From a virus: a stretch of DNA of 64,000 nt. The translations under genes and the position numbers were made by a program. Position 1 is the stretch's first letter; every line of letters begins with the position of its first letter. Positions 3,746-24,938 of this stretch are shown here, in pieces. The notes under the pieces were generated by a model, which did not search any database, had not been told where the DNA came from, and saw nothing but the letters and a program-made list of their open reading frames with translations. The stretch is from IMG/VR virus record IMGVR_UViG_3300013126_000010, positions 120,708-184,707 of that record; one strand, written 5' to 3'.

Positions 3746-4050
3746 ATAATTTGGTGGATTGTTTTTTCGTTACTGTATAAGTACAATCCACCTAAAACTT
3801 ATTTGCTATTACTTATGCAGTAATAGCAAATCCAGCATAAACGTCATCGTTTGCGTTTAATTTTTTGATTTTTACATCTTTCTCGATGATTCTAAATTAT
3901 TCTTTCTCAACCACGTCGAAAACCTTTCATCCCCATAATAAGAGCATTGTTGCTATAATTAGGATTGGGTTCAGGTGTTATCGCTAACAAGGGAGTTCAA
4001 TGCCCTTATTGTGGAGATGGGCGTATCGAAACGCCGTCCGCAATTTTTAC
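3745..4050 (-). ncRNA. ssrA: Circularly permuted (two-piece) tmRNA, tag ANDDVYAGFAITA
   Basis: tmRNA rescues stalled ribosomes: it is charged with Ala, then templates a degradation tag. On the minus strand the acceptor half comes first, with T-arm GGCGT-TTCGAT-ACGCC and 3' acceptor CATCTCC-A. A ~78-nt intervening sequence follows, closed by pairing of AATAAGGGCATTG with CAATGCTCTTATT. The coding half then starts GGGGATG and has the conserved GGTTTTCGACG. Acceptor strands GGGGATG/CATCTCC pair (one G-U). The tag frame (3813-3854) reads ANDDVYAGFAITA-stop; its stop sits in the loop of an 11-bp stem. This is the known two-piece arrangement of alphaproteobacteria, some betaproteobacteria and cyanobacteria. 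Outer ends are approximate. Confidence 0.85.
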
Positions 4051-4088
4051 TTAAATAATCTTTCAGCCATTTCTAGCAACGAATTCTT

Positions 4089-4428: not shown

Positions 4429-5082
4429 TTAATCTTTACCACTTAATGACAACAGTATTTGAAGAATGTTCAAGAACATATTCAAAATATCCAAATATAG
4501 TTGGACAGTTGCTCTAATGTAATTAGTTTCACCACCATTAATAATTTCACTGGTGTCATACAATATAAATCCAGAGAATATTACAACGGCGGCAAATGAT
4601 ACCATCAATTGTAATCCAGGAATATGAAATATAATCCCTGCAATACTGACCACGATTAGACCGATCAATGCTACGAATAATGTTCCACCTAAAAATCCAA
4701 AATCTTTCTTAGTGATGGTCACATAAGACGATAATGCGATGAATACAAGAGCAGTAAGACCGAATGCATATGCGATTAGTTCTGGACCATTAACAAACTG
4801 TTCAGTAACTTGATGCAGTACTGGTCCAAGTGTTAATCCTTCAAATCCAGTGAACAACAGTACACAAACCAACCCAAGTGATGATTCTGCAGTTGCCATT
4901 GTAAGAAATAACAATCCAATTGCTACTATCAATTGCACCCATATATTAATGGGTTCGATATTCATCAGTACTGCCACCCAAGCTGAAATGGCTGTGTTGA
5001 GTAATGTACCGGATAATAACCAGTATGTATTACGTAGTACTTTGTTCGTTTCGAAAGTTGAATCTATTGTTGTAGCTGCCAT
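4429..5082 (-). CDS. Bax inhibitor-1/YccA-like membrane protein
   Basis: 217 residues with about seven hydrophobic helices. Family signs are TGFEGLTLGPVL in the middle and the C-terminal block YDTSEIINGGETNYIRATVQ followed by LYLDILNMFLNIL, typical of the BI-1/YccA/YbhL family. Bacterial YccA binds the FtsH protease and modulates it; some family members leak Ca2+. In a phage it may shield phage membrane proteins from FtsH or alter membrane stress; that role is inference. The start MAATTIDST is 15 bp behind an AGGAA-type site. Confidence 0.85.
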   Translation of the reverse strand: MAATTIDSTFETNKVLRNTYWLLSGTLLNTAISAWVAVLMNIEPINIWVQLIVAIGLLFLTMATAESSLGLVCVLLFTGFEGLTLGPVLHQVTEQFVNGPELIAYAFGLTALVFIALSSYVTITKKDFGFLGGTLFVALIGLIVVSIAGIIFHIPGLQLMVSFAAVVIFSGFILYDTSEIINGGETNYIRATVQLYLDILNMFLNILQILLSLSGKD

Positions 5083-7086: not shown

Positions 7087-7096
7087 AATTATATAC

Positions 7097-7150
7097 AGGT
7101 TGATGTTTTTCACATTTCAGGTATGATTGTTTATTTGCGGTAATCAACCT
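7097..7150 (-). ncRNA. RNA element I: mini tRNA-like hairpin RNA (loop CCTGAAA)
   Basis: 54 nt. Outer stem AGGTTGA/TCAACCT, motif TTACCGCAA, then a 5-bp/7-nt arm TCATA-CCTGAAA-TGTGA, like an anticodon arm with TGA at positions 34-36 but C at 33. No D- or T-arm. It directly follows element B in the same transcript. Confidence 0.5.
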
Positions 7151-7158
7151 AAATTAGC

Positions 7159-7281
7159 AGGATAGTTTTTATACGTTGCTCTACCAGTCTGAGCTAACTT
7201 CTCCATAGTATTTGGGAGAAGTATGGGATTTGAACCCATGACCAACGGCTTAACAGGCTATTTAATTGCTGTAACTATCCT
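7159..7281 (-). ncRNA. RNA element B: circularly permuted tRNA-Asn(GTT)
   Basis: Outer stem AGGATAG/CTATCCT with motif TTACAGCAA. Inside, the tRNA 3' half comes first (7258 down to 7214): anticodon loop CTGTTAA, T-arm ATGGG-TTCAAAT-CCCAT, acceptor strand CTTCTCC. A ~10-nt linker follows, then the 5' half (7204 down to 7174): GGAGAAG, D-arm AGCTCAGACTGGTAGAGC, ending AACG. Joining AACG to GCCTGTTAAGCCGTTG gives a perfect stem ACGGC/GCCGT and acceptor GGAGAAG/CTTCTCC. The order is that of permuted tRNA genes of red algae and prasinophytes. How the halves are joined is unknown. Confidence 0.75.
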
Positions 7282-7293
7282 AATTCATAATTT

Positions 7294-17661: not shown

Positions 17662-17733
17662 TATTCCCGACGAATCCTGCCATCGTACTGCCGCCTTGAA
17701 AGGGCGATGTTCTAACTTTTAAACTACGGGAAT
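17662..17733 (-). tRNA. tRNA-Glu(TTC)
   Basis: Acceptor ATTCCCG/CGGGAAT, anticodon loop CTTTCAA with stem TCGCC/GGCGG. The T-arm is weak (ACGA/TCGT with a 9-nt loop lacking TTC). Reads GAA. A promoter lies just upstream. Confidence 0.8.
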
Positions 17734-21234: not shown

Positions 21235-21256
21235 GATATTACCTTTATAATTAAAC

Positions 21257-21309
21257 AGGATACTTTTTATTTTCGCCAATGAAATTTTTTAATTTGCTGA
21301 ATGTATCCT
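21257..21309 (-). ncRNA. RNA element E: mini tRNA-like hairpin RNA
   Basis: 53 nt. Outer stem AGGATAC/GTATCCT, motif ATTCAGCAA, then TTTC-ATTGGC-GAAA (6-nt loop). Nearly identical inside to element D but with a different, still perfectly paired outer stem, which is strong evidence for selected RNA structure. It starts 5 nt after the CCA of tRNA-Ser(TGA). Confidence 0.5.
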
Positions 21310-21314
21310 AAAGT

Positions 21315-22996: not shown

Positions 22997-23056
22997 AGGA
23001 TAGCTTTTACGGTTTTGATTAGAAGTCAAATGTATTAAGCTTGCTGAAACTATCCT
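22997..23056 (-). ncRNA. RNA element C: mini tRNA-like RNA with Arg(TCT) anticodon arm
   Basis: 60 nt. Outer stem AGGATAG/CTATCCT, motif TTTCAGCAA, then TTTGA-CTTCTAA-TCAAA, a perfect 5-bp/7-nt anticodon arm with TCT and U33. No D- or T-arm: a 10-nt connector (ACCGTAAAAG) leads to the 3' strand. It is as small as armless mitochondrial tRNAs of nematodes. Lies downstream of element D in one transcript. Confidence 0.55.
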
Positions 23057-23082: not shown

Positions 23083-23097
23083 AATCTTTTATTTAAC

Positions 23098-23150
23098 AGG
23101 ATGTATTTATTTTCGCCAAATGAAATCTTTTAATTTGCTGTAAACATCCT
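23098..23150 (-). ncRNA. RNA element D: mini tRNA-like RNA (possible Gln TTG loop)
   Basis: 53 nt. Outer stem AGGATGT/ACATCCT, motif TTACAGCAA, then TTTC-ATTTGGC-GAAA. Reading U33 gives anticodon TTG. The promoter at 23158-23186 starts transcription at its first base, so it is the first RNA of the transcript D, hairpin, C. Confidence 0.5.
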
Positions 23151-23157
23151 AAAATTT

Positions 23158-23451: not shown

Positions 23452-23508
23452 CTGGATCACGTTTTTCAAATTTACTGTTTGATTGTTTAGATTGCTGAAA
23501 TGATCCAA
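23452..23508 (-). ncRNA. RNA element H: mini tRNA-like hairpin RNA (loop CAGTAAA)
   Basis: 57 nt. Outer stem TGGATCA/TGATCCA, motif TTTCAGCAA, arm TCAAA-CAGTAAA-TTTGA. Positions 34-36 would be GTA but position 33 is A. Six-nt 3' connector, no D- or T-arm. Confidence 0.5.
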
Positions 23509-24784: not shown

Positions 24785-24805
24785 TTTCGCATCTCATTAT
24801 TAACA

Positions 24806-24918
24806 GGGTAGCAAATATGTTTTACCGCTAAACTACCATAGTGACCAACTCTATGGCTGGGATTCGAACCCAGGACTTTTCTTTACGATAGAAATTATTA
24901 AAATTGCTGAAACTACCC
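24806..24918 (-). ncRNA. RNA element G: circularly permuted tRNA-Thr(CGT)
   Basis: 113 nt. Outer stem GGGTAG/CTACCC, motif TTTCAGCAA. The 3' half comes first: anticodon arm TTTCT-ATCGTAA-AGAAA, T-arm CTGGG-TTCGAAT-CCCAG, then CCATAGA. An ~8-nt linker follows (GTTGGTCA), then the 5' half CTATGGTA and D-arm GTTT-AGCGGTA-AAAC. Acceptor CTATGG/CCATAG pairs perfectly. The break lies between D-arm and anticodon arm. Confidence 0.7.
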
Positions 24919-24938
24919 AAGGTCATTTCATTAAATTA

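Follow-up and report, generated by a model that had tools for sequence, protein, structure and literature searches.

The bacterial Y RNA YrlA (Rfam RF02553) has paired 5' and 3' ends and contains a permuted transfer RNA (tRNA)-like module, consisting of a T-arm, a closed acceptor stem and a D-arm, and it acts with a TROVE-type Ro60 protein encoded in the same genome. In algae and archaea, circularly permuted tRNA genes also encode the 3' half ahead of the 5' half; these possess a bulge-helix-bulge junction, are processed by a splicing endonuclease and a ligase, and give rise to real tRNAs (PMC3978253). In Dictyostelium, the Class I RNAs (RF01414), 42-65 nt in length, are marked by an end stem, an AAG start, a CUGU end and an 11-nt motif, and have been called unique to dictyostelids (PMC7919456). 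Finally, the tRNAs of Lak megaphages have been found to contain 'enigmatic introns' (PMC6784885). Here we analyze a locus that shares features with each of these systems, located at 7158-7282 on the minus strand of a 64,000-nucleotide stretch (the window; positions 120,708 to 184,707) of the 184.7-kb virus record IMGVR_UViG_3300013126_000010 from IMG/VR. This locus, which an earlier annotation (the original prediction) had described as a circularly permuted tRNA-Asn(GTT) gene, probably makes a Y-RNA-like tRNA mimic that belongs to a Ro60-like ribonucleoprotein (RNP).

On the minus strand the 3' tRNA half precedes the 5' half, and one Asn(GUU) cloverleaf accommodates both. The outer ends pair with each other through a 10-bp inverted repeat, hereafter P1. 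From 5' to 3' (7282 to 7158), the 125-nt unit comprises the P1 5' arm UAGGAUAGUU (7273-7282), the conserved unpaired motif ACAGCAA (7266-7272), a UUAAAUA linker, the 3' part of the anticodon arm with its GUU anticodon (GC-CUGUUAA-GC-CGU, 7245-7258; upper arm 7258-7248, CGU 7247-7245), the variable loop UGGUC and the T-arm (AUGGG UUCAAAU CCCAU, 7223-7239). There follow an 8-bp acceptor stem ACUUCUCC/GGAGAAGU (7197-7222; strands 7222-7215 and 7204-7197), closed by the 10-nt loop CAAAUACUAU between 7215 and 7204, the D-arm (7178-7195), the 5' strand of the lower anticodon stem (ACG, 7174-7176, partner of the CGU at 7245-7247), an A-rich strand, UAUAAA, and the P1 3' arm AACUAUCCUG (7158-7167). 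Cloverleaf and pairing thus bear out the original prediction as to the swapped halves, the full set of tRNA parts and their coordinates; its acceptor and its stem ACG|GC/GCCGU are likewise correct, and an ordinary Asn(GTT) gene is indeed also present (2739-2811, called by ARAGORN). It had left the strand unstated and had missed the outer inverted repeat with the adjacent ACAGCAA, which proved to be the key to the locus.

The fold of the window gene is better than that of dinucleotide shuffles (z -3.25), and its architecture goes beyond chance because it recurs in dozens of phages with differing acceptors, anticodons and P1 sequences. ARAGORN calls no tRNA at 7158-7282, and Rfam returns only sub-threshold matches, to tRNA (26.9 bits, gathering cut-off 29) and to YrlA (39 bits, cut-off 69). 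Scans for promoters and terminators around 7159-7282 found nothing adjoining the unit on the minus strand.

Pattern scans of IMG/VR, using ACAGCAA, the T-arm and TAGCTCAG, uncovered approximately 90 distinct permuted phage genes with a common plan (P1, ACAGCAA, tRNA halves, A-rich strand, P1', G), along with more than 100 tRNAs of normal order in which a hairpin plus ACAGCAA is inserted into the anticodon stem. A P1 of at least 7 bp forms between the arm 5' of ACAGCAA and the strand that follows the D-arm in 76 of the 90 permuted genes, as opposed to 6% when partners are swapped, and the permuted genes display 67 distinct P1 arm sequences; pairing retained across such varied sequences is strong covariation. 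Searches with blastn showed that Vibrio phages have permuted Asn genes and that Klebsiella phage KP13-16 has a permuted gene as well. A reading of the KP13-16 unit as tRNA-Pro was set aside, as U33 is absent and the anticodon is consequently uncertain. Conservation of this sort bears on the notion that the locus is a decayed remnant, namely two functionless half tRNAs produced by recombination in a tRNA array. The tRNA-rich neighbourhood with its degenerate units, and the mismatched acceptors of some relatives, are what such decay would leave behind. However, P1, ACAGCAA, the acceptor and the T- and D-arms are intact across highly divergent sequences and, given the P1 covariation and a conserved place beside one gene and on one strand (see below), a remnant is scarcely credible.

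A more serious competitor is a true permuted tRNA gene, in which P1 and its flanks would constitute a permuted intron and RNase P would open the acceptor loop to release a working Asn tRNA, with the intron removed either through RNA catalysis or through a nuclease acting with RtcB or a phage ligase. Joining at 28/29 or 29/30 exactly completes the anticodon stem and yields canonical loops in most members, permuted and non-permuted alike, and the non-permuted tRNAs bear the same element inserted at the same site. RtcB adjoins the system in some Clostridia. The Lak phage tRNAs, with their unexplained introns (PMC6784885), offer a parallel, since the short inserts can be likened by description and Lak-B1 has a DUF2828 gene, the family discussed below. 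What speaks against a joined product is its identity. The window gene has C73, which pairs with an extra G, whereas Asn identity calls for G73; among ordinary phage Asn tRNAs this discriminator base (N73) is G in 42 cases, T in six, A in one and never C. N73 fits the anticodon in 1018 of 1066 ordinary tRNAs from the same loci (95.5%). In the permuted genes the fit drops to 26 of 56, close to the 22.8 expected were the two independent. In many permuted relatives, moreover, the acceptor stem is capped by a 4-nt loop, which is frequently UUCG, GNRA or CUUG. Nor does the junction of the window gene form a bulge-helix-bulge, being flanked by the continuous 10-bp P1 plus two unpaired strands, 14 and 6 nt long. 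These processing features of the algal and archaeal genes are not seen here, and no evidence of splicing was found.

The tRNA identity is thus lost, both here and class-wide, and a tRNA gene is not the best reading of the locus. Joining of its halves into a functional Asn tRNA is unsupported because of C73, the independence of N73, the acceptor tetraloops, payloads that consist of tRNA fragments only, and the adjacent Ro60-like gene. RtcB was considered as a phage-encoded ligase and rejected, being present in only 8 of 54 phage records and in neither this phage nor KP13-16. A self-splicing or ligase-spliced mini-intron was rejected as the leading explanation in view of the N73 test, the units with partial payloads and the linkage to Ro60, and we regard a true permuted tRNA gene as unlikely.

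The partial payloads mentioned above come from hundreds of shorter units framed by the same end module, which enclose an anticodon arm alone, a T-arm alone or no recognizable tRNA part. Units with one arm only offer nothing that could be spliced into a tRNA. The frame P1-NCAGCAA-X-P1', in which the stem encloses the CAGCAA core, occurs in 371 places, as compared with 27-132 for control hexamers. Of 224 short units with a 3' G, 74 contain a perfect anticodon stem-loop in X (9.4 expected from shuffles) and 21 contain a T-arm (0.0 expected). The window itself houses at least five short units and, in addition, another permuted unit, every one on the minus strand. Directly neighbouring the window gene is a unit at 7096-7151 with the variant core ACCGCAA, a 9-bp P1 and no tRNA parts (fold z -2.6). 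A unit at 21256-21310 (P1 8 bp, UUCAGCAA) has a paralogue at 23097-23151 (P1 8 bp, UACAGCAA), while those at 22997-23056 and 23452-23508 hold, respectively, an intact anticodon stem-loop (UUUGA-CUUCUAA-UCAAA) and a stem UCAAA/UUUGA with the 7-nt loop CAGUAAA. The second permuted tRNA-like unit (UUCAGCAA, 24805-24920) has a P1 of approximately 6 bp, an acceptor paired at six of seven positions and TTGCAA...TATAAT upstream; its fold is no better than shuffles.

The short units bear a resemblance to the Dictyostelium Class I RNAs, for which homology is not claimed. Common to both are a short end-joining stem with an AAG start and a CUGU end, the UUACAGCAA motif beside the 5' strand, an A-rich 3' strand and a variable middle, so that the end stem and adjacent motif by which Class I RNAs are recognized are both in place. 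The Class I model itself scores the phage short units below its gathering cut-off of 41.5 bits, the best being 32.1 bits (E 2.8e-5) for 21256-21310, with 24.9 bits for 23097-23151 and 20.4 bits (E 0.35) for 7096-7151. Class I RNAs differ in having no tRNA parts and in being shorter than the 125-nt window gene.

Clustering of open reading frames (ORFs) from 219 loci identified a single family, present in 101 of them, that combines DUF2828 with a DUF7788 vWA domain. DUF7788 occurs in 41 of the 48 records that bear units, this phage and KP13-16 among them, and was absent from all 14 control genomes; by tblastn, the DUF2828/DUF7788 family is found in only 681 of 50,697 phage records (1.3%). The nearest unit lies a median of 120 nt from the DUF2828 gene, and 213 of 216 units share its strand (213:3). 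When loci were instead picked by the protein alone, same-strand units appeared within 2.5 kb in 8 of 10 isolate loci, for a total of 14 units, where 30 rearranged cores gave 0.8 on average. An AlphaFold2 model of the protein (mean predicted local distance difference test score, pLDDT, 89) was compared with known structures by Foldseek, and the best 11 PDB matches were all Ro60/TROVE proteins, the closest with a template-modelling (TM) score of about 0.6. The metal ion-dependent adhesion site (MIDAS) residues of the vWA domain, DxSxS..T..D, are invariant in the family. DUF2828/DUF7788 proteins are accordingly predicted to adopt the Ro60 fold, a helical-repeat ring plus a vWA domain with MIDAS, as do the mycobacteriophage 'Ro-like RNA binding protein' and the phage TROVE proteins (for example that of Thermus phage phiLo, 9l5y). 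In mycobacteriophage Aegeus, a P1-ACAGCAA unit that includes an anticodon arm sits immediately downstream of the Ro-like protein gene; no RNA is annotated at this type of site in the records examined.

Several cultured phages carry unannotated P1-ACAGCAA units beside DUF2828, among them phiSUSP1 (L324:7700-8560) and Listeria phage P100 (L325:5670-5930), the stretch of the latter being conserved in 54 Listeria phage records; further examples are loci L318, L319, L320, L322 and L323. Prevotella phage Lak-B1 (L326) has a divergent DUF2828 gene, and within 8 kb of it there is no unit with an exact CAGCAA.

With a Ro60-like partner in view, the locus might also be taken for a classical YrlA Y RNA that acts with a TROVE-type Ro60. 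The order of T-arm, acceptor and D-arm is identical, YrlA is matched below threshold, and Vibrio phages Va1 and phiTY18 combine a permuted Asn gene with a TROVE gene. Yet the end module differs, being built on ACAGCAA and lacking the YrlA-type internal loop, a full anticodon arm is present that the YrlA model does not contain, the score falls under the Rfam cut-off, and the Ro60-type gene of this genome is a DUF2828 gene rather than TROVE. TROVE was examined as the general partner and discarded, as it is encoded in only 4 of 54 records, two of which are Vibrio phages with a different end module. We consider YrlA as such very improbable. The Vibrio phages Va1, phiTY18, pv27, TDDLMA and phiKT1024 (L002, L003-L005, L008) have an unannotated permuted Asn tRNA-like gene whose end module is longer and different. 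These genes lack ACAGCAA and, in the two phages searched (Va1 and phiTY18), come with TROVE; they were excluded from the present class as a sister kind, and are likely Y RNAs of the classical sort.

A number of observations weigh against assigning the window gene to a Ro60-like RNP. The DUF2828 gene of this phage (G000:C1 114266-116808, minus strand; locus L310), which lies outside the window at some 4 to 6.5 kb from its start, is interrupted by approximately 1.1 kb bearing an opposite-strand ORF of 310 aa that weakly matches DUF7487, and its product may be split or lost; Rfam detects no group I intron in the interruption. A TROVE (PF05731) gene is absent from the 184.7-kb record, which also tells against a classical YrlA. 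In most members, the anticodon stem, split into 2-3 bp to each side of the junction, is still perfectly paired and U33 is retained, features that a spliced tRNA would explain too, and the non-permuted insert tRNAs retain part of the N73 signal (44 of 67, 33.7 expected). The unconstrained minimum free energy fold of the window gene (-34.2 kcal/mol) lies below the cloverleaf-like fold (-29.2 kcal/mol).

The architecture, the P1 covariation, the family with partial payloads, the lost tRNA identity, the linkage to the protein gene and the Ro60 fold were established computationally; protein binding, the lack of splicing and a decoy or repair role are inferences. In the mechanism that we propose, the locus would produce a stable 125-nt noncoding RNA with its 5' and 3' ends paired through P1. 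P1, ACAGCAA and the A-rich opposite strand would form a putative binding module for the Ro60-like DUF2828/DUF7788 protein, while the inner part, with its closed acceptor stem, T-arm, D-arm and anticodon arm, would mimic a tRNA without being spliced or ever becoming charged. By analogy with the bacterial Y RNAs, the RNA may tether or gate the protein and present a tRNA look-alike to tRNA enzymes. Most likely it would contribute to the repair or quality control of tRNAs, or would serve during infection as a decoy for enzymes that cleave tRNA.

Most likely, the units form an extensive and unannotated family of small tRNA-imitating RNAs, encoded in phages and bacteria next to the gene of a Ro60-like RNA-binding protein. 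If so, a widespread tRNA-mimicking RNA-protein machine has been overlooked by tRNA finders, the uncharacterized DUF2828/DUF7788 family gains an RNA partner, the 'permuted' and 'intron-containing' tRNAs of phage tRNA clusters are explained, and annotation or codon-usage arguments that count such units as tRNAs require correction. Escherichia coli phage phiSUSP1, Bacillus phage FADO and mycobacteriophage Aegeus provide cultured, genetically simple systems in which to study the function of Ro60-Y RNA particles and to ask whether tRNA mimicry shields phage translation from tRNA-cleaving defences. A broader proposal, which we put forward only tentatively and think rather doubtful, is that phages, Firmicutes and social amoebae share a single RNA class defined by the ACAGCAA end module, such that phage tRNA mimics, phage-tRNA 'introns' and Class I RNAs are all Y RNAs of DUF2828-type Ro60 with swappable payloads, including whole permuted tRNAs. 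Through the resemblance to Class I RNAs, a connection with amoeba RNAs reported to be group-specific becomes testable.

Our literature search, in which the Y RNA field was covered incompletely, found no report of permuted tRNA genes in phages or of these RNAs. Within that literature, the novelty suggested by the original prediction holds for permuted tRNA genes in phages, but not for permuted tRNA-like modules, already known from YrlA. Phage Y RNAs near Ro60 were reportedly described in 2014, and part of the present findings may already be known.

Beyond phages, a scan of GTDB genomes returned 86 stretches, most of them tRNAs with an insert and chiefly from Clostridia. A DUF2828 gene is found in the same stretch (up to 8 kb long) at 58 of these 86 loci. 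Recurrent neighbours of this gene are WYL- and WCX-type regulators, recognized by weak Pfam matches at 26 and 23 loci, and an ORF of the RtcB family, present at 12 insert-tRNA loci. This Clostridia neighbourhood of insert tRNA, DUF2828, WYL/WCX and RtcB (L220-L305) resembles the Salmonella rsr-yrlBA-rtcBA RNA-repair operon.

Three other features of the window, all on the minus strand, merit mention. The phage has its own transfer-messenger RNA, encoded by a permuted (two-piece) gene at 3813-4070 (Rfam RF04321, 104.7 bits). A tRNA at 17662-17733 is recognized by Rfam (43.3 bits) and not called by ARAGORN. A membrane protein of the Bax1-I family (PF01027), an unusual phage cargo, is encoded at 4429-5082.
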